NCBI RefSeq assembly: GCF_000341105.1 | Contig: NZ_ANBB01000003.1 | Span: 1-64,000, forward strand | Source of the DNA: Nocardiopsis potens DSM 45234 | Lineage (GTDB): Bacteria; Actinomycetota; Actinomycetes; Streptosporangiales; Streptosporangiaceae | Direction of reading: 5' to 3' | DNA: 64,000 nt | Part shown: piece by piece, positions 8,338 through 63,503 of the stretch | Layout of the letters: each line of letters starts with the position of its first letter | Numbering within the stretch: position 1 is the stretch's first letter | Program-made: the position numbers and the translations under genes | Notes under the pieces: generated by a model | Told to the model about the DNA's origin: nothing | The model's input: only the letters and a program-made list of their open reading frames with translations | Databases searched by the model: none

Positions 8338-8805
8338 ATGCGGAACGACGAGAGCGGTGGGCGGGCGCGGGGCGCGGTGGAGATCGGGCCCGCGGTGGGC
8401 GAGGCCGACCGGGCGGCCTGCTATGTGATCAGGGGGGCGGTCTTCGTCGCCGAGCAGGGGGTGTCCAGCGCGCTGGAGCCGGACGCGGAGGACCCGGGGG
8501 CCGAGCACCTGCTGGCCCGGGTCGGCGGGGTGCCGCTGGGCACGGTGCGGATGGTGGTCCGCGGCCGGACCGGGGTGCTGGGGCGGCTCGCGGTGCTGCC
8601 GTGCGCGCGGGGGGCCGGGCTGGGCGCCCGCCTGGTCCGGGCCCTGGAGGAGCACGCCGCGCGGTGCGGGGTCACCCGGATCGAGCTCCACGCCCAGCTG
8701 CACGCCCGGGACTTCTACACCCGGCTCGGCTACACCGCCCACGGGCCCGAGTTCACCGAGGCCGGGATGGTGCACGTGTCCATGGCCAAGGAGCCGGTCG
8801 GCTGA
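8338..8805 (+). CDS. GNAT-family N-acetyltransferase
   Basis: A 155-residue acyl-CoA-dependent acetyltransferase. FVAEQGV near residue 36 and the substrate-loop layout resemble the ElaA subgroup. The acetyl-CoA loop is LAVLPCARGAGLGARLVRAL (about residues 83-102), containing the R-x2-G-x-G/A pattern, followed by HARDFYTRLGYTAHGPEF. The length is normal. It is probably monocistronic, with its own leaderless promoter. The acetylated substrate is unknown. Confidence 0.88.
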   Translation: MRNDESGGRARGAVEIGPAVGEADRAACYVIRGAVFVAEQGVSSALEPDAEDPGAEHLLARVGGVPLGTVRMVVRGRTGVLGRLAVLPCARGAGLGARLVRALEEHAARCGVTRIELHAQLHARDFYTRLGYTAHGPEFTEAGMVHVSMAKEPVG

Positions 8806-8923
8806 GCGGGGCGGTGGCGAGGCTCACGAAATACCGGGAGGCGGGGCGCGGGTTGGAGAGAGCGGGCGGCGGCTCCGGGCCGCGGGATCCCTCCCGCGCG
8901 GCCCCGGGACCGGCGCCGTAAGC

Positions 8924-8935
8924 TACTACCGAGTA
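8924..8935. promoter_or_regulatory. TACT-N4-AGTA palindrome upstream of the thioesterase gene
   Basis: TACTACCGAGTA overlaps a possible -10 (TAAGAT, 8934-8939) about 90 bases before the thioesterase gene. The position suits a repressor operator of the TetR type that often controls acyl-CoA genes. This is inference. Confidence 0.3.
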
Positions 8936-9025
8936 AGATTCGGTTCGGGGGCCGGGCCCGAGAACCCGGCCTCCGGTACGCGCACGCGCCGAGCGGCGCT
9001 GCGGATCGAATCGTTGAAGGAAGAC

Positions 9026-9688
9026 ATGACGGTCGACGCACAGCCGGTGACGGAACTGCCGGATCCCGCCGACTACGGATTCACCGTGGTCCCCGAGGAG
9101 GAGATCCCCGCCGAGCTCGCCTCGCTGGTGGAGCGGGTCCGGTCGCTGATGGACGCCGCCGCGCACACCGAGGCCCCGCCCGAGGCGCTCGCCGCGGCCG
9201 CCGACGCGGTGGCCAAGGCCGAGGAGCTGGTCCAGGGCGGCCGCCGGCAGCTGGGCGCGATGGTCCGCTACACCTACCCCGACGACTCCATCGAGTACGG
9301 CACCCTCACCAACGGCGTCTCCGGGCCGGTCAACCCGCTGGCCCCGCCGCTGGTCCTGGAGAAGGACGCCGAGGGCGGCGTCCGCGGCGAGGTGCTGCTG
9401 AACGGCCTCTACCAGGGGCCGCCCGGACTGGTGCACGGCGGCTGGCTGGCGGCCCTGCTGGACCAGGCGCTGGGGACCGCCTCCAGCGTCGCGGGCATGC
9501 CGGGGCTCACCGCCAACCTGGACGTGAACTACCGCGAGCCCACCCCGCTCAACGTGCCGCTGGAGATCAGCGCCCGGGTGACCGGGACCGAGCGGCGGAA
9601 GGTCTTCGTCTCCGGTGAGATCCGGCACGGCGGGAAGGTCACCGCAGAGGGCACCGCGATCATGGTGCGCCTGTCGCTGCCCGAGTGA
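9026..9688 (+). CDS. PaaI-type hotdog thioesterase
   Basis: A 220-residue protein with a C-terminal hotdog fold (about residues 110-218). The active-site region is GLVHGGWLAALLDQALG (HGG near residue 137), followed by LTANLDVNYREPTPL, as in PaaI/YbgC-like acyl-CoA thioesterases. The N-terminal 100 residues are helical and not diagnostic. The ATG at 9026 has AAGGAAG immediately upstream; a TTG at 9014 is less likely. It is followed 117 bp later by an acyl-CoA ligase on the same strand, so the pair may make and hydrolyse acyl-CoA in the same fatty-acid pathway. Confidence 0.85.
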   Translation: MTVDAQPVTELPDPADYGFTVVPEEEIPAELASLVERVRSLMDAAAHTEAPPEALAAAADAVAKAEELVQGGRRQLGAMVRYTYPDDSIEYGTLTNGVSGPVNPLAPPLVLEKDAEGGVRGEVLLNGLYQGPPGLVHGGWLAALLDQALGTASSVAGMPGLTANLDVNYREPTPLNVPLEISARVTGTERRKVFVSGEIRHGGKVTAEGTAIMVRLSLPE

Positions 9689-11708: not shown

Positions 11709-12035
11709 TCAGCGGGGGGCGTCCCCCCGCCGCCAGGTGATCGTCACCTGGATGCTGCTCTCCCCGGTGGCCTTGGCCAGGAACACGTCGGCCTCGGCGC
11801 TGATCTTCATGCCCAGCTGGACGCTGAGCTCGTCGGCCTCCGCGGCGACGCCCCGCATCTCCCGGACGACCAGCGCGGACAGGTCGCGCACCCGGCCCAG
11901 GATCCGCTGGATCGTCTGGTCGGAATCGCGTAGTATGTCCCGTCCGCTCACGTCGCGCATCTGCGGCGAGCTGCCGGCGGCCTCCACCAGCACCGCCGCG
12001 CCCTCCTCGTTGTCGAAACGGACGATCTCCGCCAT
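11709..12035 (-). CDS. Trypsin-co-occurring domain protein (CU044_2847/Trypco1 family)
   Basis: A 108-residue protein beginning MAEIVRFDNEEGAAVLVEA and ending with the diagnostic strand pair around VQLGMKISAEADVFLAKATG ... VTITW. This is the Trypco1 pattern, a small beta-rich domain that accompanies trypsin-like proteases in bacterial conflict loci. GGGAGG precedes the ATG by four bases; longer upstream frames lack a site. It lies on the same strand as the trypsin-VMAP operon 0.5-8 kb away but is separated from it by the DUF397 gene. I infer it is a partner or regulator of that protease; its molecular role is not established. Confidence 0.8.
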   Translation of the reverse strand: MAEIVRFDNEEGAAVLVEAAGSSPQMRDVSGRDILRDSDQTIQRILGRVRDLSALVVREMRGVAAEADELSVQLGMKISAEADVFLAKATGESSIQVTITWRRGDAPR

Positions 12036-12265
12036 TTGCCTCCCTCGGGCCGGGTCCGGCACCGGAATCGGAAATGCCATGGTCACCTGGATCGCCACAA
12101 TGCGTAAGGGAAATGTCCGGGACCGGTCGACATAGAGATAAACGATCGGGGGATAACCACGCCGACCGGCGCCCAGTCGGGAATTTCGCCATGGGACGAG
12201 TGCGCCCACCGCCCGTACCCCGCGTACCGGGGCGCGTTCCCCCAGTGCACGGCCGAGAGGTCCCT
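12036..12265. promoter_or_regulatory. Divergent promoter gap Trypco1/DUF397
   Basis: 230 bp between two divergent small genes. It is less GC-rich than its surroundings (for example around 12110-12150) and should hold both promoters, but I could not place -10/-35 elements with confidence and see no clear operator. Confidence 0.3.
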
Positions 12266-12571
12266 ATGAACGCTGATCCGACGGAATTCTGCGAGGAGGC
12301 CGGGGAACGGGCCGGCCCTTTCACACCGCCCACCGGAGAGCACCGCCCGGACGAGGGGCGGCGCCTCCGGCGGGGGCTGCACGACGGGCGCGGATGGCGC
12401 ACCCCGCGGAGAAGCGATCCGAACGCCCATGGCTGTGTGGAGGCCCGTCCCGCGGCGGCGGGCGTCCGAGTGCGGGACTCCCGCAACCGGGACGGCGCCG
12501 AACTCGGCTTCGGCGACGGCGACTGGTGCGCCTTCCTGGCGCTGCTGCGCCGCGGCGCGTCGGTCGACTGA
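12266..12571 (+). CDS. DUF397-domain protein
   Basis: A 101-residue protein whose C-terminal half fits DUF397: a W-R-x(4)-S start (WRTPRRSDPN), a C-V-E core (GCVEARPAAAG), VRVRDSRNRDG and a closing W-x-AFL (GDWCAFLALL). DUF397 proteins are small actinomycete regulators usually next to an XRE-type helix-turn-helix gene. None is adjacent here. GAGAGG stands five bases before the ATG. The gene sits on the plus strand inside the trypsin/VMAP locus, convergent with the NB-ARC gene (16-bp gap), so it may regulate that locus. The N-terminal 45 residues are low in recognisable motifs. Confidence 0.75.
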   Translation: MNADPTEFCEEAGERAGPFTPPTGEHRPDEGRRLRRGLHDGRGWRTPRRSDPNAHGCVEARPAAAGVRVRDSRNRDGAELGFGDGDWCAFLALLRRGASVD

Positions 12572-12587
12572 CCCCGCCGGCCCCGGT

Positions 12588-15500
12588 TCACATCAGGTTG
12601 GGGAACAGGTCGCAATTGGCCCGGACGTCCTGGGCCGCCGACCGGGTGGCCGGGTGGTCGGAGCCGAACACCAGGGCGTACCGGGCCACCACCCGCTTCC
12701 TCTCCTCGAGGCAGGCGTCCCCGTGCACCGCGGCCCTGTCCAGCAGCAGGTTGCGTTCGGCCGCGAGGGTGAGCGGGTGCTCGTCGCCCAGGGCCGAACG
12801 AGAGGTCCGCAGCGTCCGCTCGTCCAGCTCCAGCGCCTTGGCCGGGTTTCCGCCGACGAACAGGTCGCTGGCCAGGTTGACCGCGTTGGCGATGGTGCTC
12901 GGGTGCCCTTCGCCGATCCCGGTGTGCACCTCCAGCGCGGCCTCGTCGAGGAGGCGGGCCTCATCGGCCCGCCCGAGCAGCCGGAGGATCACCGCGTGGT
13001 TCAGCGCGACGTCGGCGTAGGCCGGATGCCGGTCGTTGTAGGCGCTCCGGAACCCCTCCAGCGTCCGCTCGGAGAGGGCGAGCGCCTGGTCGTACTCGCC
13101 CGCCGCGCGCAGCGCCACCGAATGGCAGCCGGCCGCCTGCAGGGTGGTGAACGCCTCCGGCGCCCCCTTCCCGAGGTAGATCGCATAAGTCTCCTCGGAC
13201 AGCGCCAGCGCCTCCTGGACGCGTCCCATCCGGCGCAGCAGGGTCGCCTGCAGCAGCAGCAGGCCGAGCCGGAACTGGTTGTCCTCGGGGTAGACCCGCT
13301 CGGCGGTGGTCCTGCAGTCCTCGATCAGGTCCAGCCCCTTGCCGAACTCGGCCCGCTCCATCAGGCCCACGGCCAGGGCGTACCCGCTGGACAGGGTGCG
13401 CGGGTTCTCCGGCCCGAGGATCTCGGTCCTGCGCTGCAGGTTGTACCCGTCGATCGCCATGGCCTCCTCGAGGCGGCCCATCAGCCGCAGCCCCACCGCG
13501 TGGATGTGGGCCGTCTGCAGGGTCAGCGGGTCGTCCCGGCCGAGCACCCGCTCCTGGGCCTCCAGGACCTCCCCGCTGACCTCCAGCGCCTCGTGGAACC
13601 GGCCGAGGTTGCGCAGCTGGAGGACGAGGTCCTGGCGGACCTCCAGGGTCTCCTCGTCGGCCGCGCCGCGCAGCCGGGTGAGCGTGTCGACCACGTGCAG
13701 GGTGAGCGAATGCGCCTCCTCGAAGTCGCCGAGGGTGGACAGCAGAGCGGCGTACCGGGCGCGGGCGCGCAGCGTCTGCGGGTGCTCGGCGCCCAGGTGC
13801 CGGGTCCAGTGGTTGACGGTGGTCTCGGCCAGCGTCCGGGCCGCCTTCACCCGGCCCCAGGTGTGCAGGAACGAGATCTCGTTGAGGACCAGCTGCCGGC
13901 ACCACGGGCTCTCGCAGTCCCACTGCTCGGTCTCCCAGATGTGCGGGAGCAGCTCGGCGTAGCGCGGCCAGTCGGCCACCGAGTCCGGGTCGCCGGGGTC
14001 GAAGTTGGCCAGCAGCTGGTGCGCGCAGTGCCGGTACTCGGCGCGGCGCTCGTCGTCCAGCGGCAGCTTCAGCGTCTCCTGGACCAGCTTGTGCAGCTGG
14101 AAGGTGGAGGTCCGGTGGTCCATCCGGGCCAGCGCGTACCGGTCGATCGCGCGCAGCACCCGGCCCAGCCGCACCGCCGGGTCGGAGAGGACCTCCCGCA
14201 GCTCCGCCGGGCCCTCCACGTTGCGCGCGTTGTTGAACAGCCGCCGCGGGACGGGCTGCGGCGCCAGGAACGCGCACACCTGGAGCAGCCGCAGCGCCGC
14301 CGGGTCGGTCTGCAGCAGCCGGTCCAGCGCCATGTTCATGGTGGCGCCCACCGTCCACGGGTAGTCCGGCGAGGGCGCCACGCCGCTCAGCAGCTCCGCC
14401 TGCTTCTCGTCGAAGACCTCCAGCCAGTCGGCGGGGTCCATCATCGTCTCGTACAGCCACACCGCGGTCTGCTCCACGGCCAGCGGCAGGTCGCCGAGCT
14501 TGTCGGCGATCAGGTCGGCGTCGGTGGCGGTCAGCGACTCCGGGCCGCGCTTGGCGAGCAGCTCCACGCTCTCCTCGCGGCGGAACACGTCCACCTCCAG
14601 CAGGTGGCCGCCGGCGTTGCGCCAGTCCGCCGCGCGCGAGGTGATCAGCACCTGGCCGGGGCCGCCGCTGGGCAGCAGCGGCCGGATGTCCTCCGGCGCG
14701 GCGGCGTTGTCGTAGACCAGCAGCCAGTCCCGGTAGGGGTGGCCGGAGCGCAGCGTCTCCAGCACGGTCCGGGAGATGCTCGCCGGGTCGCGGTCGGCGT
14801 CGATGCCCAGCCGCGGGGCCAGGTCGATCAGCGCCTGCTGCACCTGGGTGGGGGTGTCCGCCGGGATCCACCACACCAGCTCGTAGCGGTCCTGGCTGCG
14901 CCAGGCGTACTCCAGCGCGAGCTGGGTCTTGCCCACGCCGCCCATGCCGCGCAGCGCCTGCGGCAGGATGTGCGTGTCCCCGGCGGTCAGCCGCCGGGAG
15001 AGCTCGTCCAGGAGCTCCTGGCGGCCGACGAACGCCGGGTTGCGCTGCGGGATCCGCCCCCAGACGTGGGGCCGGCTCCGGGACAGCGGCCCGCGGACCG
15101 GGCCGGGCGGGGCCGGGAGCACCGCCGGCCGCTCCACCGGGGCGGCCTGCTCGGGGACGGGGGCGCGCGAGGTCTCCGTGGCGACCTGGCGGCCGGCACC
15201 GGAGAAGTCGGGGTCTGCAGAGGTCACGTCTTCGTCTTTCTGCTCGGCTCGATCGTGGCCGGCGGCGGTCCGCACCGCCGGCGGGGCGCCCGCCGCCCCC
15301 GACCCGTCGGAGTCGGGGCGCGCCACGTCCCACAGTTCGGCGGCCCGGCGCAGCGGCCCGGGCAGGGCCCGCATGGCCGGCCGCAGCGCCCGCGCGGCGG
15401 GCGCCGTCTCGTCGTGCACCGGCGGCAGCGCCGGGTCGAAGGTCTCCCCGCGCAGCAGCGCCGCCAGCGGCCCGGTCCAGGGCAGCGCGCCGAACCGGTC

Positions 15501-17114
15501 CACCGCGGTCTCCAGCAGCGCGCGGATCCGGGCGCGCCGGCCGCCGGCGGCGAGCAGCGCGGCGCGCACCCCCGGGCGGAACCCCAGGGAGACCTGGTCG
15601 GCCCGGGTGACCGGGGCGCCGCCCGGCCGCCGCGCGATCAGGCCGGACCACAGCGCCTCGGCGGTGTCGGCGGTGGTCGCCTCCGGGACGAAGGCCTCCC
15701 GCACCGCGTGCACCATCGGCATGTTCAGCGGCACCGCGGCCAGGCACACCGCCAGTTCGAAGGCGGCCGGGGAGGCCGTCTCTCGGAACGCGGCCACCAG
15801 CTCCCCCGGGTCCGCGGAGGAGTCCGCCGCCAGGGGCGCCTCCTCCGGCGGGCGGGTGCCGAACGGCTCGGCGGTCGGCTCGGCCGGCACCGCCGACACC
15901 GGCAGCTCCGCCACGGCCGGCGACTGCGCGACGAAACCCGCCCAGCGCTCCAGGTCGGCGGTGCGCAGCGGCAGCACCGGGACGGGGACCGCGTCCGGGG
16001 AGCCGCCCTCGCCGGGCGGCGGGGCGAGGGCGCCCGCCGGGAGGCGGACCCGGTAGCGCGCGTTGGGCGCCATCGCGCCCCCGGGGGCGGAGAGCACCAG
16101 CGGCCGCGTGCGCAGCCCGGTCCGCGGCCACTGCGGCCGGTCGAGCACCTGCAGCACGGCGACCGCCGCCCGCCGCCCCCACCGGGCCAGCCAGGTCTGC
16201 ACGGCGCCGCGGTGCCAGCCCTCGCCCGCGCCGTCGGTGAGCACCAGCACGACCTCCGCGGCGGAGGGCGCGCCGGAGAACAGCTCGCGCGGATCGGGCG
16301 CGGGCCCGTGGCCGGCGCGCAGCACGAGGTCGTCGGGCCACGCCTTGTCCGAGTCGAAGCGGAGCGCGCGGGTGCGGCGGAACAGCCGCAGCGGTTCGAC
16401 CAGCGCCAGGAACTCCTCCACCAGCGGCTCGTGCACGAGCATCGGCAGCCCCGCGTCGACCAGCACGGTCAGCCGGTCCGCCGGGCGCCGCTCCGGCGCG
16501 AACCGGGGGATCAGCGGGGCGGGGTTCGGGCCGGCCGGTCGGCGCACCGCCAGCGCGCGCCGGGCGTAGGACTCGGCGGTGGCGTACTCGTCCAGCGGGC
16601 CGCGGCCAGGGCCGGGGAGCCTGCGGCGCAGCCGGGACAGCGCCCGGACCAGGCCCTGCCGGTCGGCGAGCTCGGGGCGGGGGACGGGGGCCGCGGGCCG
16701 GGCGGCGAGCGGCCCGCCCGGTGCCGGGGCGGTGCCGGTCCGCCCTGCGGGCGGGAGGATCCCGGCCGGCCCGCCCGGCCGCACCGGCGGCGGACCGGCG
16801 GGGGCGGCCGGCGGGACCGCGTCCCCCTGCCGGGGCGGGGACTGCGGACCGTCCGCGACCGCGCTCTGCGGTCCGCCCGCAACGGCGTCATGCGCTCCGC
16901 CCGCGACCGTGCTCTGCGGTCCGCCCGCAGCGGTGTCATGCGGTCCGCCCGCAGCGTCGGCATGCGCGGCGGTGCGGGCGGCCAGCCAGACCGCGTCGCC
17001 CACCTCCCACCACTGCGGGGAGCCGGTGCCGGGCAGCGGCGGGCCGGGGGGCGGCGGCTGCGCGGCCTCCCCCCGGTCGTCCCGGGGTCTTTCCTGGTCG
17101 TCGCGCCCGGTCAC
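12588..17114 (-). CDS. SAV_2336/vWA-like, NB-ARC, TPR STAND protein (FxsT-like)
   Basis: A 1508-residue sensor-type protein. Residues 1-130 are Pro/Gly-rich with an 8-residue tandem repeat. Residues ~140-330 match the SAV_2336-related region with a vWA-like fold; its metal site is degenerate (LVDAGLPM near 216 instead of DxSxS), followed by VVLVLTDGAGEGW. Then comes an NB-ARC NTPase with the lead-in FVGRQELLDEL, Walker A GMGGVGKT (about 723-730), Walker B WLLVYDN, sensor VLITSR and a GLPL-like LGDLPLAVEQ. About ten TPRs fill residues ~1090-1500 (repeat core AEHPQTLRARARYA). GTG start; GTGA overlaps the MoxR stop. Family knowledge suggests ATP-dependent oligomerisation on ligand binding. A SARP-type activator is excluded because no DNA-binding domain precedes the NTPase. 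Confidence 0.85.
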   Translation of the reverse strand: MTGRDDQERPRDDRGEAAQPPPPGPPLPGTGSPQWWEVGDAVWLAARTAAHADAAGGPHDTAAGGPQSTVAGGAHDAVAGGPQSAVADGPQSPPRQGDAVPPAAPAGPPPVRPGGPAGILPPAGRTGTAPAPGGPLAARPAAPVPRPELADRQGLVRALSRLRRRLPGPGRGPLDEYATAESYARRALAVRRPAGPNPAPLIPRFAPERRPADRLTVLVDAGLPMLVHEPLVEEFLALVEPLRLFRRTRALRFDSDKAWPDDLVLRAGHGPAPDPRELFSGAPSAAEVVLVLTDGAGEGWHRGAVQTWLARWGRRAAVAVLQVLDRPQWPRTGLRTRPLVLSAPGGAMAPNARYRVRLPAGALAPPPGEGGSPDAVPVPVLPLRTADLERWAGFVAQSPAVAELPVSAVPAEPTAEPFGTRPPEEAPLAADSSADPGELVAAFRETASPAAFELAVCLAAVPLNMPMVHAVREAFVPEATTADTAEALWSGLIARRPGGAPVTRADQVSLGFRPGVRAALLAAGGRRARIRALLETAVDRFGALPWTGPLAALLRGETFDPALPPVHDETAPAARALRPAMRALPGPLRRAAELWDVARPDSDGSGAAGAPPAVRTAAGHDRAEQKDEDVTSADPDFSGAGRQVATETSRAPVPEQAAPVERPAVLPAPPGPVRGPLSRSRPHVWGRIPQRNPAFVGRQELLDELSRRLTAGDTHILPQALRGMGGVGKTQLALEYAWRSQDRYELVWWIPADTPTQVQQALIDLAPRLGIDADRDPASISRTVLETLRSGHPYRDWLLVYDNAAAPEDIRPLLPSGGPGQVLITSRAADWRNAGGHLLEVDVFRREESVELLAKRGPESLTATDADLIADKLGDLPLAVEQTAVWLYETMMDPADWLEVFDEKQAELLSGVAPSPDYPWTVGATMNMALDRLLQTDPAALRLLQVCAFLAPQPVPRRLFNNARNVEGPAELREVLSDPAVRLGRVLRAIDRYALARMDHRTSTFQLHKLVQETLKLPLDDERRAEYRHCAHQLLANFDPGDPDSVADWPRYAELLPHIWETEQWDCESPWCRQLVLNEISFLHTWGRVKAARTLAETTVNHWTRHLGAEHPQTLRARARYAALLSTLGDFEEAHSLTLHVVDTLTRLRGAADEETLEVRQDLVLQLRNLGRFHEALEVSGEVLEAQERVLGRDDPLTLQTAHIHAVGLRLMGRLEEAMAIDGYNLQRRTEILGPENPRTLSSGYALAVGLMERAEFGKGLDLIEDCRTTAERVYPEDNQFRLGLLLLQATLLRRMGRVQEALALSEETYAIYLGKGAPEAFTTLQAAGCHSVALRAAGEYDQALALSERTLEGFRSAYNDRHPAYADVALNHAVILRLLGRADEARLLDEAALEVHTGIGEGHPSTIANAVNLASDLFVGGNPAKALELDERTLRTSRSALGDEHPLTLAAERNLLLDRAAVHGDACLEERKRVVARYALVFGSDHPATRSAAQDVRANCDLFPNLM
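16842..16965 (-). repeat. 24-bp tandem repeat inside the NB-ARC gene
   Basis: About five imperfect copies of a 24-bp unit encode AGGPHDTA, AGGPQSTV, AGGAHDAV, AGGPQSAV and ADGPQSPP. The repeat is in frame, so copy-number change would lengthen the linker without breaking the gene. Confidence 0.7.
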
Positions 17115-18226
17115 TCTCGGTCCGTTTCCGTGAGGCGTTGCCAGATCACATCGAGGACGTGCTGCCAGGCGTCCGAGTCCCAGGATGTGGCATGGGCCCG
17201 GACATCGGCACTAACGAGATGGACCGAGTTGAGTAGCTGGTCGATCGAGAGCCCGCCCTTGCCCGCGGACTCCTCCAGGAAGGAGCGGATCAGCTCCCGG
17301 TCGGCGCCGTGCTCGCGGGTGCCGAAGTGCGCCGCGACGATCTCCGCCAGCTGGTCCCGGTCGGGCGGGCGGAGCTCCACCGGCAGGCAGCGCCGGCGGA
17401 AGGCCGCCGGGAAGGGCCGCTCGGAGTTGCTGGTGATCACGGTGAACGGGAACTCGTGGCAGGCCACCGAGCCGTTCCGGACCACCGCGGTGCGCCCCGG
17501 GTCGTCGGTGGGCACGGTGGCCTCCGGCTCCGAGGAGCTCAGCCGGGCCAGCTCCGGGATCCGGTAGCCGCCGCTCTCCAGCACGTCGAGCAGGTCGTTG
17601 GCGAGGTCGGCGTCGCCCTTGTCGAACTCGTCGATGACCAGCGCCCGGGGCTGGGCCGACGGCAGCAGCGCGGTGCCCAGCGGCCCCAGCCTCAGGTAGT
17701 CGCCGATGGGGCGGCGCGCCTCCGGGGCGCCGCCGTCGGGCGCCGCGGCCGCGTCGGCGGAGATGTCGTGGATCCGGGCCAGCGGGTCGTACTCGTACAG
17801 CCCGGAGGCGAGCGTGCTGCGGCTGGTGATCGACCAGCGCAGCACCCGGCCCAGGCCCAGCTCGCGGGCGACCCGGTGGGCCAGGCTGGACTTGCCGACC
17901 CCCGGCGGCCCGGTGACCAGCAGCGGGCGGCGCAGCAGCAGGGCGGCGTTGACCGCGGTGACGACCGCGGTCTCGGCGGGGGAGAGCGGGCGGGGCCCGG
18001 TCGGCCGGGGCGGGCCGAGCACCCGCTCGCTCTCGTCCCGGTCCTCCGGCGGGGGAGCGGGGTCCGGCGTCCCGGGGAACCGGCGCCACGGCGGGGGCGG
18101 CGGGAGGCGCTCGCGCAGCGGAGCGGCGTAGGGGCTGGGCGTCCCGGTGCCCCGGTAGATCCACCAGGAGGGCGCCGCGGCGGCGCCATCCGGCGTGCCG
18201 GGGGCGCTCCCCGGGTCGGACGTCAT
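17111..18226 (-). CDS. MoxR-type AAA+ ATPase
   Basis: A 371-residue AAA+ ATPase. Residues 1-80 are Pro-rich. Walker A TGPPGVGKSS is at ~102-111, Walker B ALVIDEFDKGD at ~194-204, sensor 1 VITSNSERP at ~261-269, and the arginine-finger region AFRRRCLPVEL follows. The ATG at 18226 has GGGAGGT seven bases upstream; the longer frame lacks a site. It begins 13 bp after the trypsin-VMAP stop and overlaps the NB-ARC start, so the three are one operon. MoxR ATPases in these loci act with vWA and VMAP partners as a chaperone-like motor; here it would couple ATP hydrolysis to release or assembly of the protease/sensor complex (inference). Confidence 0.88.
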   Translation of the reverse strand: MTSDPGSAPGTPDGAAAAPSWWIYRGTGTPSPYAAPLRERLPPPPPWRRFPGTPDPAPPPEDRDESERVLGPPRPTGPRPLSPAETAVVTAVNAALLLRRPLLVTGPPGVGKSSLAHRVARELGLGRVLRWSITSRSTLASGLYEYDPLARIHDISADAAAAPDGGAPEARRPIGDYLRLGPLGTALLPSAQPRALVIDEFDKGDADLANDLLDVLESGGYRIPELARLSSSEPEATVPTDDPGRTAVVRNGSVACHEFPFTVITSNSERPFPAAFRRRCLPVELRPPDRDQLAEIVAAHFGTREHGADRELIRSFLEESAGKGGLSIDQLLNSVHLVSADVRAHATSWDSDAWQHVLDVIWQRLTETDRE

Positions 18227-18239
18227 CGGCGGGACCTCC

Positions 18240-20291
18240 CTATTCGCTGTCCAGGAGCTCGTCTGGGGCGGAAATGGGCGCCGCCCCGGGGAGCGGCGCG
18301 GGCCGGGGAGGCGGCGCGGCGGGGGCAGGGCCGCTCCGCCCGGCACGCGGCGGGGGGATGACGTCGGAACCGGCGGGGGCGGGGCGCCGCGCGGCCGCCG
18401 CGGGCGGCGCGGCGTGATCGGTGAGCAGGGCGATGTCGAAGGGGTCGCCGTGCCCGGTGTGCATCGGGTCGGAAATGTCGGTGTCGGTGGATTCCATGCG
18501 CCACTCGTGCAAACGCCGCGGAAGATCGGCGATCTCCGCGGCGCTCAGTGAAAGGTCGCCGCGGTAAAACAACTTATCGAAAATCGGCGGCCCGTTCCAT
18601 GGGAGCAACGGCTCTTTCCCGCCACCTCCGCCCCGCCTTTCCCGGTAGCCGTCCCGGGCGGCCCCCGGCCGGTGCGGGCCGGCGCCGGGGCGGGCGATCC
18701 GCCACACCAGCGTCGGCACCCCCGCCTCCAGCGCGGCGATCAGGGCGAGCGCCGCACCGGCCCCGTCCGCCCCGGTGTCCACGGTGCACACCGCGATCCG
18801 CGGGTCGGCCAGCGCGTCGTGCGCGCGGCCCGGCGGCACCGCCGGGGGCAGGCCGCGCAGCCGCCCCGCCCCCTCCCGGGCGGCCCGCTCCAGCCGCCGC
18901 CGCATTCGCAGCCGCGCCCCGCTCCAATGCGGCGCGAACGATCTCTCATAGGAATGCAGCACGATGCGGTAAGCGCTGCCGAGCCGCTCCCCGTGCGGGC
19001 TGGCCGGGGTCCGCACCCGCCAGTGCGCAATTCCTCCGGAAAGCAGTAGAGGGAGCGGAAGGTAGAAATCCAGCGTCATCGGAACCGGGGGCGGATAAGG
19101 GCCGCGGCCGAGGAGGAGCTCGGCCTCCCGGACGATCTCCAGCGCCTCGCCGGGCAGCTCCGCCTCGCCGACGCGCGCGGTCCGCGCCGGGGTGGAGGAG
19201 CCGCCCGCCCGGAGCCGGGAGCGCACCTCGTAGCGGGGCCCGCGGCCGCCGGGCAGCGGCTCGGCGACGATCTCCAGCCGGGCCGCTGCCAGCGGCCGGG
19301 GCGCGGGGCGGGCGCGCAGCCGCCGCAGCGCCTCCCCGGGCACCTCCTCCGGGCCGCGCGAGTCGGCGTAGCCGCGCAGCGGCCCCCGCGCGGCGGGCCG
19401 GAGCTTGGCGACCTCCTCGGCGAAGACCACCTCCGGCGGGAGCCCGTCCGTCCCGGGCGCCAGCTCCCTGAGGTGGTCGAAGGCCTCCAGCGCGGTGCGG
19501 AAGCCGACCGCCTCCAGCGGGCGCTCCCGGGTCGCCGACCGGTAGGCCGGCAGCACCCCGGTGAAGGCCGTGCGCCCCAGGAAGGACTCCGCCTCGGCCA
19601 GTTCGGCGTCGGCGACCAGGTGGGAGATGGACGGGATGGACTCCACCGGGGTCATCGCGGCGAGCAGCCCGTCGGCGCCGGGGCCCGCGCCGAACAGCGA
19701 GCTGCGCACGATGCCCACCACCCCGCCGTCGTCGTCGGCGCGCACGCCGCACCCGCTGAACCCCTGGGTGATCCGGACCGGCTGGTCCGCGGCCAGGTTC
19801 AGCTGCGCGGCCCCCTCGAACAGGCCGTAGCCGGCCACCTGGGCCGCGGCGACCAGCCCGTGCGGCGCCTGGTCGCCGAGGAGCGAGGGGTGGCCGCGGA
19901 TCCGGACCGGCAGCGGCCGCCCGGTCCGCTCGATCCGGGACATCCGGGCGAGCAGCCGGGCGGGTTCGGGGTCGGCGCCGGCGCCGGGGGCGAGCCGGAG
20001 CAGGGCGGTGTCCCCGGCGGCGTCCCAGGCCTCCCCGATCAGGTGCGCGGTGCGCCGGGTGAAACCGCAGGGGCCGGGGACGTCCACCTCCAGTGCGGTG
20101 CCGTCCGCGGGCGCGCCGGCCCGCCGCGGCCGGAGCAGTGCGGCGTCGACCACGTGCGCGCAGGTGAGGACCGTGCCCCCGGGCAGGGCGACGCCGCCGC
20201 CCGCCACCGTCCCGTCGACGGCCGGGATCCGCACCTGCCAGGCGGGGGAGGGCAGAGGTGAGGAACGGAGGGTGGGAGAAGGAGAGGCCAC
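18240..20291 (-). CDS. Trypsin-like protease fused to a VMAP domain
   Basis: A 683-residue protein. Residues ~17-215 form an S1 chymotrypsin-fold protease with the catalytic set H46 (VLTCAHVVD), D94 (AAGDTALLRL) and S179 (QGFSGCGV). No signal peptide is seen, so it should act in the cytosol. A middle region (~220-400) links to a C-terminal VMAP-type region (~400-640), which includes AVCTVDTGADGAGAALALIA and ends near LPRRLHEWRMES. VMAP (vWA-MoxR-associated protein) is the adaptor of ternary NTP-dependent conflict systems, with the trypsin domain as effector. The start is a GTG with no strong ribosome site. It is the first gene of the operon with MoxR and the NB-ARC/TPR protein. Confidence 0.85.
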   Translation of the reverse strand: MASPSPTLRSSPLPSPAWQVRIPAVDGTVAGGGVALPGGTVLTCAHVVDAALLRPRRAGAPADGTALEVDVPGPCGFTRRTAHLIGEAWDAAGDTALLRLAPGAGADPEPARLLARMSRIERTGRPLPVRIRGHPSLLGDQAPHGLVAAAQVAGYGLFEGAAQLNLAADQPVRITQGFSGCGVRADDDGGVVGIVRSSLFGAGPGADGLLAAMTPVESIPSISHLVADAELAEAESFLGRTAFTGVLPAYRSATRERPLEAVGFRTALEAFDHLRELAPGTDGLPPEVVFAEEVAKLRPAARGPLRGYADSRGPEEVPGEALRRLRARPAPRPLAAARLEIVAEPLPGGRGPRYEVRSRLRAGGSSTPARTARVGEAELPGEALEIVREAELLLGRGPYPPPVPMTLDFYLPLPLLLSGGIAHWRVRTPASPHGERLGSAYRIVLHSYERSFAPHWSGARLRMRRRLERAAREGAGRLRGLPPAVPPGRAHDALADPRIAVCTVDTGADGAGAALALIAALEAGVPTLVWRIARPGAGPHRPGAARDGYRERRGGGGGKEPLLPWNGPPIFDKLFYRGDLSLSAAEIADLPRRLHEWRMESTDTDISDPMHTGHGDPFDIALLTDHAAPPAAAARRPAPAGSDVIPPPRAGRSGPAPAAPPPRPAPLPGAAPISAPDELLDSE

Positions 20292-56549: not shown

Positions 56550-58181
56550 TCAGCCCTCCGCCGAGTGCTCCGCCGCCGCGGCGGTCATCCCCTCTGCGGC
56601 CGCGCGCAGCTCGGCGAAGCGGTGGCCGGGCAGGTCGAGCAGGGTGTGGTTCGGGGCCCACGGCGCCCACTCGGACACCAGGGAACGGGCGGTGCGCTTG
56701 TTCACCGGGGCGCCGTCCCGGCCGGTGACCGCGATCAGCCCCTCGCGCAGCGTGCGGGGGAGCGGGCCGTGCGCCCGCTCCTGGCAGTAGGCCAGCAGCC
56801 GCTCCGCCGCCGGGGCGTCCTCCGGCAGGGGAGCGGCGGACACCTCCACCACCGTCTCCCGGGGCCCCGGGCGGCCCTTGAGGAACCGCACCCGGAACCG
56901 CGGCTCCAGCAGCGCGCGCAGCGCCCGCTGCCCGGCGGCGTCGCGCACCTCCGGCGCCGACGACGGCACCACCGCGCGGACCCGCGGCCCCGCCCCGGCC
57001 AGCAGCGCGCGGCCCAGCAGCGCCTCCCACCCGCCGGTCAGCAGCAGCACCGGGTCCTCGGCCGGCACCGGCGACGCCAGCCAGGTCGCCAACCGCACCC
57101 GGCGGGCCCCCTCGGGCAGCGCCGCGGCCGGCCACTCGCCCACCGCCGTCCCCCCGCCGAGCAGCTCCGCCGCGCCCGCGGCCGCCACCGCGCCCGCCGC
57201 CTCCTTGGCGTTGCCGCCCTGGCTGTAGATCCGGGCCTGCTCCGCGCCGCCGCCCGGCGCCGTGCGCGACAGCGGCCGCAGCACGTACAGGTCGCTGGCG
57301 GCGCCGATCGCCTCCGCGCCGAGGTAGCGGTTGAAGTCCGGCAGCACCGCCTCGAACACCAGGTCCAACCGGGCCAGCCGGGCCTGGGTCCTGGCCACCA
57401 GGCCCGGGGTGGTCCCACTGGCCCCGTAGGCCACCAGCACCCGGCCGCGCCGCGGATCGGCCATCCCCTCCAGGCCCCGCCGGACGAACAGCTCCACCCC
57501 CTCCGGGGTGTACGGCGGATCGGTGAAGACCAGGTCCCCCCAGCCCGCCACCGGCGCCGGCAGCCCCGCCCGCAGATCCGCGAAGTGGCACCGCACCGCC
57601 AGACCGAGCCGGGCCGCCGCGCCGTCGATGTACTCCAGCATCCGCTCGTCCACGTCCACCACGGCCGCCTCCGCCTCCGGGCAGACCAGCAGCGCCGCCA
57701 GCGACGTCAGATCGTGGTCGCCGACGCACAGCAGCCGCCGCCCCGGCATCGCGAACCGGTCGGCCAGATAGGCTCCGCGCCGCAGCGCGGTCCCCGGCGT
57801 CGCCGCCACATGGTCCAGCTCGGTCCGCGACGGCGGCGCCTCGGCCACCAGCCGCCGCAGCTCCTCGGCGGCCCGCGGGAACCGGCCCGCCGCCTCACCC
57901 GGATCGGCCGGCGGGCCGCCCGCCGCCCGGAACCCCGCGTACCCGCCCGGCCGGGCCAGCCGCACCCGCTCCTCGGGCCCGCCGTCCCCCCGCTCCAGGT
58001 CGCCGCCGAGCGCGTCCAGCGCCGCCGCGACCAGCCGGTGCGGCACCGCGGTGGCCCGCACCAGCTCCCGGGCGCTCCACGGCTCCCCGCCCGCCAGCGC
58101 GCCGAGCACGCGGTGGATGAGGGCCGCATCGGCACCCTGCTCGTCCAGGAGTGCGGAAAGGTCGGAAGGAAGATCGCTCAC
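56550..58181 (-). CDS. Bis-aminopropyl spermidine synthase-family protein (BpsA-like)
   Basis: 543 residues. An N-terminal winged-helix part (~1-110: DAALIHRVLGALAGGEPWSA) is followed by a Rossmann-type aminopropyl/methyltransferase: LLCVGDHDLTSLAALL (~148-163, the G-D-D-D-like motif), VVDVDERMLEYID (~172-184) and FTDPPYTPEGVELFVRRG (~216-233), all as in BpsA/DUF43 branched-polyamine synthases of thermophiles. The C-terminal ~200 residues are not recognised. In this actinomycete the substrate is unknown. Starts GTG 58181; the frame stays open far upstream but only as antisense of gltB. Confidence 0.78.
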   Translation of the reverse strand: MSDLPSDLSALLDEQGADAALIHRVLGALAGGEPWSARELVRATAVPHRLVAAALDALGGDLERGDGGPEERVRLARPGGYAGFRAAGGPPADPGEAAGRFPRAAEELRRLVAEAPPSRTELDHVAATPGTALRRGAYLADRFAMPGRRLLCVGDHDLTSLAALLVCPEAEAAVVDVDERMLEYIDGAAARLGLAVRCHFADLRAGLPAPVAGWGDLVFTDPPYTPEGVELFVRRGLEGMADPRRGRVLVAYGASGTTPGLVARTQARLARLDLVFEAVLPDFNRYLGAEAIGAASDLYVLRPLSRTAPGGGAEQARIYSQGGNAKEAAGAVAAAGAAELLGGGTAVGEWPAAALPEGARRVRLATWLASPVPAEDPVLLLTGGWEALLGRALLAGAGPRVRAVVPSSAPEVRDAAGQRALRALLEPRFRVRFLKGRPGPRETVVEVSAAPLPEDAPAAERLLAYCQERAHGPLPRTLREGLIAVTGRDGAPVNKRTARSLVSEWAPWAPNHTLLDLPGHRFAELRAAAEGMTAAAAEHSAEG

Positions 58182-58341
58182 CCCACGATCCTCCCACCCC
58201 GGGCGCCCCCGGCCGCCGCGCCCGGGCCACCGCCCGGCCGGCCCGTCGGAGTGACATCCCCCACCCGCGCCCCGGCGGCCCCGCCCGCCGGCCCGCCCCC
58301 GCGGGGTGCCGCGGACCCCGCCGGAACCGCCCGGTGCGGCC

Positions 58342-58398
58342 CGGCCCGCCGCCCGCGGCCCGGCCCGCCGCCCGCGGCCCGGCCCGCCGCCCGCGGCC
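58342..58398. repeat. 19-bp tandem repeat, three perfect copies
   Basis: CGGCCCGCCGCCCGCGGCC repeated at 58342, 58361 and 58380, with partial copies on both sides. It contains no gene and is likely variable in copy number. Confidence 0.85.
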
Positions 58399-58437
58399 CG
58401 GCCCGCGCCGGCCGCGCCGCGGCCACCGGAACCCGGC

Positions 58438-58540
58438 GGAAACACCCTCGTCAACGCCTTGTTACGCTGCCTCGAGAAGGTCCCGCCCGGTGTGTCGATG
58501 TTTGACCCCCCGGGCCGCTGGAAACACCTCCGCCAACCCG
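58438..58540 (+). promoter_or_regulatory. Two GGAAACACC-N-CAAC motifs upstream of gltB
   Basis: Similar 21-base motifs begin at 58438 and 58520 (17 of 21 bases shared). The first reads GAAAC-N6-GTCAA-N6-GTTAC, i.e. 11-bp periodic half-sites reminiscent of GlnR boxes (GTnAC-N6-GAAAC). A nitrogen-control site is plausible for gltB but unproven. Confidence 0.35.
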
Positions 58541-58664
58541 GTACCACCGGGAGGGGGCGACCGTCGTATCCTTGCCGAGGCGGGGAACCGGCGCAGCGAA
58601 CCGGGCCGCACCGTGGCGGCCCGTGGTCTAGACCTGGGATTCGCGAACCACCCCGACCACGTTG

Positions 58665-58670
58665 TATAAC
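58665..58670 (+). promoter_or_regulatory. Candidate -10 of gltB
   Basis: TATAAC is the most AT-rich hexamer in the gap, 208 bases before the gltB ATG. TTCGCG (58640-58645) is a poor -35. Confidence 0.35.
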
Positions 58671-58877
58671 CTGAACCACCCGAGCGGGCCCGAACAGGCG
58701 CGCTCCGCAACGGTCACCACGAGGACGTGCACCCCCAGGACCGAGCGGAGCCCGCGGCGGCCCGCCCGCCCCGGCACCGCGGCCGGGCACAACCGAACCG
58801 AACACACCGCAGCAGGGCCAATGTCGTCCCGGATGCGCTTTCACCGAAGCCCATACGCACGACGACATGGAGGGTAG

Positions 58878-61800
58878 ATGCCTGCTGGCCAGGTGCAGCG
58901 TCCGCTCGACCGCACGGACGCGGAACCCACCCGCAACGCGGCCACCCGCCCCGGCTCCGACCAGGGCCTCTACGACCGCTCCTTCGAGCACGACGCCTGC
59001 GGTGTCGGCTTCGTCGCCGACCTCACCGGCCGGCGCACCCACGGCACCGTGGGCAAGGCCCTCACCGTCCTGCGCAACCTGGACCACCGCGGCGCCTCCG
59101 GCGCCGACCCCGACGACGGCGACGGCGCCGGGATCCTCACCCAGATCCCCGACGAGCTCTACCGCGCCACCACCGGCTTCGACCTGCCCGAGGCGGGCGC
59201 CTACGCCACCGGCATCGCGTTCCTGCCCACCGGCGAGGCCGACCGGGCCGCAGCCGTCGCCCGCATCGAGGCCATCGCCGCCGAAGAGGGCCTGACCGTG
59301 CTCGGCTGGCGCGACCTGCCGGTGGAGCCGCGCTACTGCGGCCCCGCCGCCCGCCAGGCCATGCCGCACTTCGCCCAGCCGTTCCTCACCGGCGCCGCCG
59401 GCGGCCCCGCCGCCGGACTCACCGGCATCGACCTGGAGCGGTACGCCTACTGCGTGCGCAAGCGCGCCGAGCACGAGACCGGCGTCTACTTCCCCAGCCT
59501 GTCGCCGCGGACCATCGCCTACAAGGGCATGCTCACCACGCCGCAGCTGGAGCCGTTCTTCCCCGACCTGTCCGACCGGCGCTACACCTCCGCGCTGGCC
59601 CTGGTCCACTCCCGGTTCTCCACCAACACCTTCCCGTCCTGGCCGCTGGCCCACCCGTTCCGCTACGTCGCGCACAACGGCGAGATCAACACCGTCAAGG
59701 GCAACCGCAACATGATGCGGGCCCGCGAGGCCACCCTCGCCAGCGACGTGCTCCCCGGCGACCTGTCCCGGCTCTTCCCGATCGTCGACCCCGAGGACTC
59801 CGACACCGCGTCCTTCGACGCCGCCCTGGAACTCCTCCACCTCGGCGGGCGGTCCCTGCCGCACGCCGTGCTGATGATGATCCCCGAGCCCTGGGAGAAC
59901 CACACCGAGATGGACCCGCAGGTGCGGGCCTTCTACGAGTTCCACTCCATGCTCATGGAGCCCTGGGACGGACCCGCCTCCGTCTCCTTCACCGACGGCA
60001 CCCTCGTCGGCGCCGTCCTGGACCGCAACGGGCTCCGCCCCGGCCGCTACTGGGTCATCGACGACGGCCTCGTCGTCCTCGCCAGCGAGGCCGGCGTGCT
60101 CGACATCGACCCCGCCACCGTGGTCCGCAAGGGCCGCCTGCAGCCCGGCCGCATCTTCGTCGTCGACACCGCCCAGGGGCGCATCGTCGAAGACGAAGAG
60201 GTCAAGGCCGAACTCGCCGCCGAGCAGCCCTACGCCGAATGGCTCGCCCAGGGCGTGGTCCGCCTCGCCGACCTGCCCGCCGCCCCGGCCGAACCCGCCA
60301 CCGGCGACGACCTCCTCCGCGGCCAGCAGGTCTTCGGCTACACCGAGGAAGAACTCCGGATCATCCTCACCCCGATGGCCCGCACCGGCGCCGAACCCAT
60401 CGGCTCCATGGGCACCGACACCCCGGTCGCCGCGCTCTCCAAGCGCTCCCGGCAGCTCTTCGACTACTTCACCCAGGGCTTCGCCCAGGTCACCAACCCG
60501 CCGCTGGACGCCATCCGCGAAGAGCTGGTCACCAGCCTCGGCGTCGCCCTCGGCGCAGAGGAGAACGTCCTGGCCGGCACCCCGGAGGACTGCCGCCGGA
60601 TCGTGCTGCCCACCCCGATCCTGGACGACGCCGAACTCGCCGCGATCCGCGCCGCCGGCGCCCCCGGCGGCGACCCCGCCTTCCGGGTGCACGTCCTCAA
60701 CGGCACCTACGAGGCCGACGGCGGCGGTACCGCGCTCTCCCGGCGCCTCGCCGAGATCTGCGCCGAAGCCGACCGCGCCATCGCCGGCGGCGCCCGCATC
60801 CTGGTCCTCAGCGACCGCGGCTCCGGCCCCGGCCGCGCCCCGGTGCCCTCGCTCATGCTCACCGGCGCCGTCCACCACCACCTGGTCCGGGAGAAGACCC
60901 GCAACCAGGTCGGCCTGGTCGCCGAGGCCGGCGACGCCCGCGAATGCCACCACATGGCGCTCCTGCTCGGCTACGGCGCCTCCGCCGTCAACCCCTACCT
61001 GGCCCTGTCCACCGTGCGCGACCTCGCCGAACGCGGCGTCATCGGCGGCATCGACGCCGACACCGCGGTGCGCAACACCGTCAAGGCCTACGGCAAGGGC
61101 GTCCTCAAGGTCATGTCCAAGATCGGCGTGTCCACGGTGAGCTCCTACACCGGCGCGCAGATCTTCGAGGCCGTCGGCATCGGCCCCGAGGTCATCGACC
61201 ACTGCTTCACCGGCACCACCTCCCGGCTCGGCGGCGTCGGCTTCGACGTGCTCGCCGAAGAGGTCCGGATCCGGCACGCCGCCGCGCACACCGCCAACCC
61301 GGCCGACCACCGCCGGCTGCCCGTCGGCGGCGAATACCAGTGGCGTCGCGAGGGCGAACCGCACCTGTTCGACCCCGAGACCGTCTTCAAGCTCCAGCAC
61401 TCCACCCGCACCCGGCGCTACGAGATCTTCAAGGAGTACACCTCCAAGGTCGACCGCCGCGCCGGCGAGCTGATGACCCTGCGCGGAATGTTCCGGCTCA
61501 GGGAGGGCGTGCGCGAACCCGTCCCGATCGACGAGGTCGAACCGGTCTCCGCCATCGTCAAGCGGTTCTCCACCGGCGCCATGTCCTACGGCTCCATCTC
61601 CGCCGAGGCCCACGAGACCCTCGCCGTCGCGATGAACCGCCTCGGCGGCAAGTCCAACACCGGCGAAGGCGGCGAGGACCCGCGCCGCTTCACCCCCGAC
61701 CCCAACGGCGACCTCCGGCGCAGTGCCATCAAGCAGGTCGCCTCCGGCCGGTTCGGCGTCACCTCGCACTACCTCACCAACGCCGACGACATCCAGATCA

Positions 61801-63473: not shown

Positions 63474-63503
63474 GGCCCGCGCCGAAAGGAGGGATTCAGG
63501 AAC

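Follow-up and report, generated by a model that had tools for sequence, protein, structure and literature searches.

A trypsin- and Trypco1-bearing VMAP ternary locus of Nocardiopsis potens with a vWA-STAND-TPR protein and a convergent DUF397 gene

Which end of a VMAP conflict system senses and which end acts is a point on which the published models disagree (PMC7159879 and PMC10907252, in the sections used here). A locus of Nocardiopsis potens DSM 45234 raises this question, together with that of the role of a small gene lying tail-to-tail with its STAND gene. We analyzed it within a window of 64,000 nucleotides (contig NZ_ANBB01000003.1, positions 1 to 64,000), to which all coordinates refer. 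The reading that we favor, at a probability of about 0.45, is that the system is sensed by the STAND protein and has a protease as its output, and that the product of the small gene, a DUF397 protein, partners or restrains the TPR sensor.

The three core genes lie on the minus strand in the order VMAP (20291>18240), MoxR (18226>17111) and vWA (17114>12588). The first (P0003, 18240..20291) encodes a 683-residue protein with the N-terminal signaling enzyme, VMAP-M middle region and VMAP-C of a VMAP system, here a trypsin-like protease (Pfam Trypsin_2, 2.1e-6, 29.0 bits, cut-off 27.6), VMAP-M0 (3.3e-8, 34.4 bits, cut-off 25.9) and VMAP-C (3.2e-16, 60.4 bits, cut-off 27). The catalytic residues H46, D94 and S179 are at the correct positions, and all three are conserved in 63 of 65 aligned relatives, in agreement with a previous sequence-only reading that had described a cytosolic trypsin-VMAP protein with an intact triad. 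The second gene (P0002) encodes the MoxR-type AAA+ ATPase proposed in that reading. Its product matches AAA_5 (Pfam, 3.5e-8), and its WWIYRG and PPWRRF correspond to WxhapG and PsWRxa, the motifs that define the N terminus of MoxR proteins in VMAP systems (PMC7159879); W61, G66 and W87 are each present in 107 of 108 relatives, and R88 in all 108. Among solved structures, MoxR matches Midasin and RFC chains. The open frame extends to 18346, and the alignment points to the ATG at 18226 as the most likely start, giving 371 residues (17111..18226). Of the overlaps or near overlaps described for the three genes, that between the MoxR and vWA-STAND genes stands, as a shared GTGA, whereas the VMAP and MoxR genes do not overlap, being 13 nt apart when counted from this ATG.

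The third gene (P0001, 12588..17114) encodes 1,508 residues, with a vWA core at about 206-400, an NB-ARC domain at about 685-905 and TPRs at about 1061-1508. It exceeds the cut-offs of the NCBIfam families SAV_2336_NTERM (372.5 bits, cut-off 200) and FxSxx_TPR (FxsT, NF040586; 752.9 bits, cut-off 300), which bears out both the SAV_2336/vWA-like, NB-ARC, TPR architecture and the resemblance of the STAND half to FxsT. Pfam identifies TPR_12 (3.3e-36) and DUF7779, with NB-ARC marginally below its cut-off (23.1 versus 23.5), and the Walker A lysine and Walker B aspartate are conserved in 103 of 103 relatives. No vWA domain was matched by Pfam on this protein, and its vWA assignment, made through the family, is to be regarded as probable; in an alignment of 61 members including that of the window (A3), four match VWA_CoxE (best 9.7e-6) and one matches VWA_2. 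The putative strand-end aspartates, placed from sequence in VLVDAG and VLVLTDG, are Asp in 101 and 107 of 110 relatives. At position +4 of the first motif the window protein has P, where S is found in 71 and T in 17 of the 110. A conserved LDE.ATA..YA aligns ahead of the vWA core and does not plainly match the published [D/E]xxx[D/E]xxxa spacing, and a search of solved structures with the vWA profile gave one match, with an E value of 4.9. The fusion of vWA and STAND, previously taken to be unusual, had already been described: AP-ATPases are the commonest STAND NTPases in these systems, and two peptide-linked types carry a direct fusion of the vWA protein to a TPR-bearing AP-ATPase (PMC7159879).

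A Trypco1 gene (P0004) follows on the minus strand at 11709..12035. Its most likely start, in an open frame that extends to 12209, is the ATG at 12035, 552 nt past the STAND gene, giving 108 residues. The match to PF19493 (1.2e-18 on the 166-residue frame, 3.3e-19 on 11712-12032), along with one to NF041216, confirms that the locus contains Trypco1, and its pairing with trypsin recurs in 24 of 25 Trypco1-bearing loci of the best-MoxR-match set. Profile searches, which had been suggested as a check, recognized all four minus-strand proteins, the vWA part through its family.

Because the gene order, VMAP-M0 and VMAP-C, the MoxR motifs and the trypsin-Trypco pairing all fit, we assign the locus to the classical VMAP ternary system, in its trypsin/Trypco1, vWA-STAND-TPR class, a family already described and predicted to act in bacterial self-defense. 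With vWA-MoxR subsystem 1 of Kaur et al. (2020, eLife, PMC7159879) it shares the order, VMAP-M0 and VMAP-C, the N-terminal motifs of MoxR, the trypsin on VMAP, the Trypco1 neighbor and the vWA-AP-ATPase-TPR fusion, so that the original designation as a VMAP-MoxR-vWA type system agrees with the description there. A survey of neighborhoods, also suggested, showed strong co-occurrence. VMAP-C, MoxR and vWA occur together in 74 of 80 MoxR-anchored loci, which are the best MoxR matches and, like the further loci picked mainly from the Trypco1 class, over-represent the subfamily of the window; in a survey of the order, 52 of the 61 loci that exceed the SAV_2336_NTERM cut-off have VMAP-C upstream in the same orientation. 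That survey contains at least 38 fused loci, four more having surfaced in a hold-out set, and its FxsB, HExxH and FxsT matches were taken from genomes with a vWA locus only.

VMAP systems occur widely among multicellular actinobacteria (PMC7159879), and the antiphage or self-limiting role attached to the locus is a prediction of the same paper; a literature search on VMAP systems found no experimental test. PADLOC-DB 2.0.0 gave no convincing model match, the best for the MoxR P-loop being IetA (1.2e-5, 22.9 bits, 27 residues) and the only one for P0004 having an E value of 0.067. A promoter and terminator scan of the locus was uninformative. A mobile origin was considered and rejected: P0003 had no match in a search of plasmids, and MoxR matched phages at two places with 29.7% identity over 65% of the query.

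The NB-ARC-TPR half is far above the FxsT equivalog cut-off, which relates the locus to the FxSxx-COOH peptide systems. Here, however, the STAND module is fused behind vWA, and neither the FxsB radical SAM maturase nor an HExxH metallopeptidase was matched at E<=0.001 in the whole genome, extending to genome scale the earlier remark that FxSxx maturation genes are absent nearby. In the place where fused loci elsewhere carry an HExxH peptide-processing gene, the window has a DUF397 gene that the sequence-only reading had passed over (12266..12571, plus strand; 101 residues from the ATG; PF04149, 1.3e-12), convergent and tail-to-tail with the STAND gene, its product showing CxE and RDS motifs. 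A convergent downstream DUF397 gene occurs in 39 of 89 fused vWA-STAND loci, that of the window included, the best copy being convergent in all 39; an HExxH gene holds the downstream place in 42 of the 89, and both genes together in none. DUF397 was found nowhere in the locus DNA of the 43 loci labeled HExxH/FxsB, one of which (L067) has its HExxH gene about 14 kb upstream, outside that place; of the seven loci with neither gene, three have no downstream DNA. These 89 derive from 90 fused loci, of which 33 are the window and added picks (28 DUF397, 5 HExxH) and 57 belong to the best-MoxR-match set (11 DUF397, 38 HExxH and 7 neither, once L068, on the same contig as L035, is removed). The hold-out set was searched for DUF397 and HExxH, with L195 and L196 dropped as repeats of L110 and L096; repeated loci were identified from the length of the contig. 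Five of its 18 loci are not fused, and the 13 fused ones comprise 2 with DUF397, 3 with HExxH, none with both and 8 with neither, three of which have FxsB just downstream in the order survey (G051, G052, G080). In the hold-out locus L194, one DUF397 gene lies on the same strand and another is convergent. The labels change only two to four times on the trees, so that p-values overstate the split.

A figure legend of PMC7159879 states exclusion between such components, and mutual exclusion of Trypco1 and peptide-processing genes was examined and rejected, since 8 of the 89 fused loci hold both Trypco1 and HExxH. In the order survey, FxsB or HExxH accompanies Trypco1 in none of 16 loci where Trypco1 is downstream and in three of four where it is upstream. 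It is DUF397, rather than Trypco1, that alternates exclusively with the HExxH gene.

This suggests that DUF397, in a place held elsewhere by the gene for a peptide-maturing enzyme, is a candidate partner for the receptor. Alternatively, DUF397 could be a passenger of the lineage, an old neighbor that synteny has retained and that plays no part in the system, as the few independent changes on the trees, the 45 matches to DUF397 across the window's genome and a locus with no STAND-fused vWA whose two convergent DUF397 copies lie about 3.5 kb downstream (L204) would allow. We regard this as very improbable. In 34 of 39 distinct loci DUF397 is tail-to-tail within -57 to 103 bp of the STAND gene (distances between stop-to-stop ORF edges), across both MoxR-bearing and MoxR-less branches; in the other five (L087, L105, L114, L120, L123) the best copy is 301-669 bp away and there is a second match. 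Three loci whose vWA protein lacks the STAND half (L061-L063) also lack DUF397, Trypco1 directly following the vWA frame in L061, and 38 of 39 copies in this place have a better match to another such copy than to the best of the paralogs taken from the window's genome. The few label changes, together with the two DUF397 genes of L204 and one lying upstream in L124, where the vWA frame runs past the end of the DNA, do count against DUF397 as a partner. A locus with STAND in a separate frame and two DUF397 genes (L091) lies outside the 89.

DUF397 is also the small protein of the XRE-DUF397 pairs (WhiJ/BldB family, Scr1/Scr2); here, in contrast, it adjoins a convergent STAND gene, and Pfam matched no HTH among the neighboring frames scanned, which were part of the ORFs. 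BldB-family members hetero-oligomerize (PMC10294661), and the Streptomyces DUF397 pairs tested did not behave as toxin-antitoxin pairs (PMC10364602, PMC6262351), both in line with the reading that we favor. A rival reading sees the locus as an endogenous regulator of development or stress instead of a defense system; STAND and DUF397 would act like the WhiJ/BldB networks and tune differentiation by proteolysis. Streptomyces DUF397 proteins do have roles in development and in the regulation of antibiotics (PMC10294661, PMC10364602, PMC6262351), the locus shares with that of the sister species a synteny of ordinary neighbors (dnaE, aldehyde dehydrogenase, acyl-CoA ligase), and the missing plasmid match of P0003 fits as well. 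We consider such a role improbable given its patchy distribution (of 121 genomes of the order, 47 exceed the cut-off for SAV_2336_NTERM and 52 that for VMAP-C), the as many as three above-cut-off vWA loci of a single genome (G039) and the hypervariable tract described below. In the systems of Kaur et al., DUF397 is linked in about 4%, in multiple copies, whereas here it is a single convergent copy; its convergent place and its exclusivity with peptide genes were not found in the parts of PMC7159879 used.

The sister species (G056) has a syntenic locus, and in this one species pair the TPR-DUF397 tract is hypervariable. The TPR array (residues 1061-1508, 12591..13934, minus strand) is 68% and DUF397 61% identical, versus 96% for NB-ARC, and identity in successive 500-base bins from 12.0 to 14.0 kb is 84.3, 72.8, 78.0 and 88.0%. 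The TPR array has a dS of 0.315 and a dN of 0.215, versus 0.089 and 0.024 for NB-ARC, and the flanking genes have a dS of 0.088 (ligase), 0.105 (aldehyde dehydrogenase) and 0.078 (dnaE). This jump in the TPR tract, with NB-ARC and the flanking genes staying low, supports the TPRs as the variable part. Among 17 pairs with NB-ARC identity of at least 95%, which are not independent, TPR identity is below that of NB-ARC in all 17. That the TPRs are the fastest part in general was rejected, as they are below the vWA core in 8 and above it in 9 of these pairs, and a vWA core that diverges as fast counts against a STAND sensor. Selection on a TPR binding face was likewise rejected: variation showed no repeat-phase clustering (p=0.52, ten repeats set by eye), which makes the tract look like allele recombination. 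Distances of DUF397 correlate with those of the TPRs given NB-ARC (partial r 0.37, p=0.001); co-variation specific to the TPRs was rejected, since the value for the vWA core is nearly equal (0.33) and trypsin (0.63), VMAP-C (0.61) and MoxR (0.51) correlate more highly with the TPRs, Trypco1 standing at 0.24.

Six loci of one related genus (L055-L060) keep STAND and lack MoxR, which fits STAND as the switch. The possibility that the MoxR of another locus serves a MoxR-less system, as it could in G019, G113 and G061, counts against this argument. In a survey of the phylum for candidates of the MoxR-less type outside that genus, profile A4 matched in 5 of 296 genomes (eight matches, 59-95 bits), all of one other genus.

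The flow proposed by Kaur et al. is the opposite of the one we favor and counts against a STAND sensor: VMAP-M0 would sense the invader, MoxR-vWA would set the threshold, and trypsin would cut the vWA protein and free its STAND-TPR module as a scaffold- or apoptosome-like effector (PMC7159879), to which DUF397 would be added as a co-effector. In its favor, this is the model published for such components, VMAP-C shows the lowest conservation of the VMAP regions in ten orthologs (median identity 31%, versus 43.5 for trypsin and 46.5 for VMAP-M0), and the linker ahead of NB-ARC (561-684) is long and variable (median 37%). For this locus we consider that direction rather unlikely, as in the sister pair M0 (85%) and VMAP-C (91%) are not the most variable parts, the TPRs being at 68%, and tested DUF397 pairs did not behave as toxin-antitoxin pairs (PMC10364602). 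For loci diversified by DGRs (PMC10907252), the vWA-bearing protein has been proposed as the sensor and the VMAP enzyme as the output, with Trypco1 nearby, in line with the direction that we favor; there C-type lectin domains are varied by reverse transcriptase, whereas here the TPR tract is varied, probably by recombination.

In the STAND-sensed reading, the C-terminal TPR array would be the variable sensor, and binding of a ligand, or loss of a bound DUF397 partner, would lead to nucleotide exchange and oligomerization of NB-ARC, as in STAND proteins generally. The signal may then be relayed by the vWA domain, through the MoxR ring, to VMAP-C, activating the N-terminal trypsin domain, with Trypco1 as a presumed co-factor or brake; trypsin would cut a cell protein, and the infected or damaged cell would be halted. 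In this lineage the product of the convergent DUF397 gene would be a cognate protein that partners or restrains the TPR-STAND module; the sister class has the HExxH peptide-maturation gene in that place, perhaps with the corresponding role. A bolder form is doubtful in our view: that the tail-to-tail gene encodes or makes the cognate ligand of STAND, an HExxH-matured peptide or a single DUF397, the latter being the ligand or guard of an NLR-like receptor, exchanged together with the TPR array, and that in one lineage this receptor works with VMAP without MoxR.

The convergent partner gene, whether for DUF397 or for the HExxH peptide system, points to a specific candidate for the ligand of the STAND-TPR receptor, and the MoxR-less loci raise the question of whether MoxR is needed at all where STAND is present. 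If true, this would give a receptor-linked role to the large DUF397 family, for which the toxin label failed in the pairs tested (PMC10364602).

All four genes that the sequence-only reading had placed in the window were confirmed, and their order is as stated. In P0003, a trypsin-like domain, recognized from domain matches and triad positions (H46, D94, S179), is followed by VMAP-M0 and VMAP-C. P0002 is a MoxR-type AAA+ ATPase, for which ATG 18226 is the probable start. P0001 (12588..17114, minus strand, 1,508 residues) combines a SAV_2336 N-terminal/vWA region with an NB-ARC and roughly ten TPR repeats, each of ~42 residues with boundaries set by eye. P0004 is indeed Trypco1, probably starting at 12035. 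A fifth gene had been overlooked: between P0001 and Trypco1, the plus strand encodes a DUF397 protein of 101 residues (PF04149, 1.3e-12), tail-to-tail with P0001, with 16 nt separating the two ends. Elsewhere in the window, a very long open frame (56550-63758, minus strand) matches branched-chain polyamine synthase (BpsA_C, 2.6e-27); the real gene within it is probably shorter.

The VMAP ternary system was defined by Kaur et al. (2020, PMC7159879), and we compared the locus with those sections of that paper drawn on here. The locus has the order VMAP, MoxR, vWA, both VMAP-M0 and VMAP-C, both vWA aspartates in P0001, and a trypsin accompanied by Trypco1. The MoxR motifs WxhapG and PsWRxa are present in P0002; among 108 relatives, W, G, and W are each kept in 107 and R in 108. 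The MIDAS-like motif of the vWA core (P0001 residues 217-225) reads D-A-G-L-P, and its +4 proline, a position usually occupied by serine, is common to L034, the syntenic locus of the sister species G056. Homologs co-occur strongly in the neighborhood survey: VMAP-C lies upstream on the same strand in 52 of the 61 SAV_2336_NTERM loci over the cut-off (121 genomes of the order), and of 80 MoxR-anchored loci in named genomes, 78 have VMAP-C, 76 have vWA, and 74 have both of these together with MoxR. The vWA-STAND fusion had been thought unusual. This did not hold, because the sections of PMC7159879 used here report AP-ATPases as the commonest STAND NTPases of these systems and describe two peptide-linked types whose vWA protein is fused to an AP-ATPase with TPRs.

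The suggested likeness of the NB-ARC-TPR half to FxsT, the NB-ARC-TPR protein of FxSxx-COOH systems, was borne out by a family score of 752.9 bits. FxSxx-COOH systems share this family with the window's STAND half but differ in FxsB and HExxH, the peptide-maturation genes, neither of which had a match at E<=0.001 in the whole genome (6.9 Mb, 133 contigs); their reported absence nearby thus extends genome-wide. Judged by these two features alone, the window locus is not an FxSxx-COOH system. The same genome harbors a second VMAP-MoxR-vWA-STAND system (L033, C55:14000-33000) with a convergent DUF397, and no Trypco1 was found within the 19 kb of DNA examined there.

We gathered 90 loci in which vWA and NB-ARC-TPR share one frame (57 from named actinomycetes and 33 others including the window), or 89 after one duplicate was dropped. 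DUF397 lies downstream in 39 of these, its best copy convergent in every case and -57 to 103 bp from the STAND gene in 34. HExxH or FxsB occurs in 43, and in 42 of them HExxH is convergent in the place of DUF397; the sole exception, L067, has HExxH far upstream. Seven loci have neither gene (three of them lacking downstream DNA), and none has both. When the profiles were kept fixed and applied to 13 additional fused loci, two had DUF397, three had HExxH, none had both, and eight had neither. The Fisher p of 3.7e-18 for this exclusion is not to be taken at face value, since the labels need only 2 to 4 changes on the NB-ARC and MoxR trees and the selection of both locus sets centered on this subfamily. 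Two loci run counter to a strict rule: L204 (G117:C1:564000-577000) has a vWA unfused to STAND and two convergent DUF397 copies ~3.5 kb downstream, and L124 has a single DUF397 upstream. DUF397 is absent from L061-L063, loci of a related genus whose vWA has no STAND half; at L061, Trypco1 directly follows the vWA frame. For 38 of the 39 DUF397 genes in this place, the best counterpart from the same place at another locus outscored the best paralog, paralogs being taken from the window's genome only. The DUF397 loci L033, L050, and L085 fall among HExxH-type rows in the STAND tree and with DUF397 rows in the MoxR tree. A STAND exchange that left the DUF397 position unchanged in the host lineage may account for this, but the large STAND-tree fork containing the group is drawn open. 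At L078, L081, L082, and L094, which have neither DUF397 nor HExxH, another convergent frame of ~457-520 codons lies downstream of the STAND stop; by eye it resembles a cation/proton exchanger, and it is followed by an opposite-strand frame that resembles an alpha/beta-hydrolase.

In six loci of genus g3 of the same family (L055-L060, from G068, G019, G085, G113, G061, and G070), trypsin-VMAP is followed directly by a vWA-STAND frame of 1,283-1,308 residues and then by convergent DUF397 and Trypco1, with no MoxR found within the 14-15 kb of DNA examined. Their vWA proteins lack the stretch that elsewhere precedes the vWA core, and the NB-ARC tree groups the six loci as a single clade (99/92). 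When eight whole genomes were queried with P0002, G068, G065, and G044 gave zero matches, G070 and G058 gave matches of ~31 bits, G037 gave a weak match and a fragment of 45% identity located where a contig begins, and G085 gave a full MoxR at another locus; G065, G058, G044, and G037 are known from vWA/Trypco1 spacing, with VMAP-C as well for G065 and G058 only. G019, G113, and G061 carry MoxR-bearing VMAP loci elsewhere (L061, L063, and L066). L061-L063 are VMAP-MoxR-vWA loci with trypsin and Trypco1; G019 and G113 hold both this type and the MoxR-less type, and G075, the third genome, has vWA/VMAP-C/Trypco1 spacing resembling the latter. A search of the text of PMC7159879 for several wordings of MoxR loss found none used in that sense.

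Compared with G056, in which the locus is syntenic, flanking genes have dS values of 0.088 (ligase), 0.105 (aldehyde dehydrogenase), and 0.078 (dnaE); a further frame without a family (8753-9628) has 0.206. Identity is 96% for NB-ARC (dS 0.089, dN 0.024), 97% for the winged-helix part, 95% for MoxR AAA, 92% for trypsin, 91% for Trypco1 and for VMAP-C (dS 0.223), and 85% for M0. The TPR array has 68% (dS 0.315, dN 0.215), dropping to 57-58% with dN/dS near 1 at P0001 residues 1381-1470, DUF397 has 61% (domain core, 70%), and the N-terminal stretch 1-205 of P0001, with its low-complexity linker, 77% (dS 0.302). In 500-base bins, nucleotide identity is at least 90.8% across 9.0-24.7 kb with two exceptions, 12.0-14.0 kb (84.3, 72.8, 78.0, and 88.0%) and 16.5-17.0 kb (80.0%); a length difference lies near 20.0-21.0 kb. 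The raised dS suggests that the TPR tract is an imported divergent allele rather than the product of point selection only. With repeats placed by eye, the TPR changes showed no tie to repeat position. In all 17 close pairs (NB-ARC at least 95%, window pair included), TPR identity is below that of NB-ARC, but in 9 of them the vWA core is less conserved still, so a variable-sensor reading of the TPR would lean mainly on the window-G056 pair and its synteny.

Two competing directions of signaling have been described, in the portions of the sources used here. In that of Kaur et al., the VMAP middle region is the sensor, MoxR-vWA sets a threshold, and the protease frees a vWA-borne effector (PMC7159879); in the DGR direction, the vWA protein senses via its C-terminal module and the VMAP N-terminal enzyme is the output (PMC10907252). 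For this class we favor the DGR direction as the one that would apply, because the protease triad (63/65 relatives) and the NB-ARC K and D (103/103) are intact, the TPR tract is variable, and family matches gave no enzymatic family C-terminal to NB-ARC in P0001. As for DUF397, the relevant portions of PMC10364602 (14 XRE-DUF397 pairs tested) and PMC6262351 (Scr1/Scr2 experiments) weaken the idea of a toxin, and those of PMC10294661 describe family members that hetero-oligomerize and have regulatory roles. On these grounds we favor a DUF397 that would act as a partner or restraint of STAND-TPR.

We conclude that the window locus is well formed and belongs to a predicted system that is already known. 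What is new is a conserved DUF397 gene lying convergently where other loci keep the peptide gene, together with a side branch of the family that lacks MoxR.
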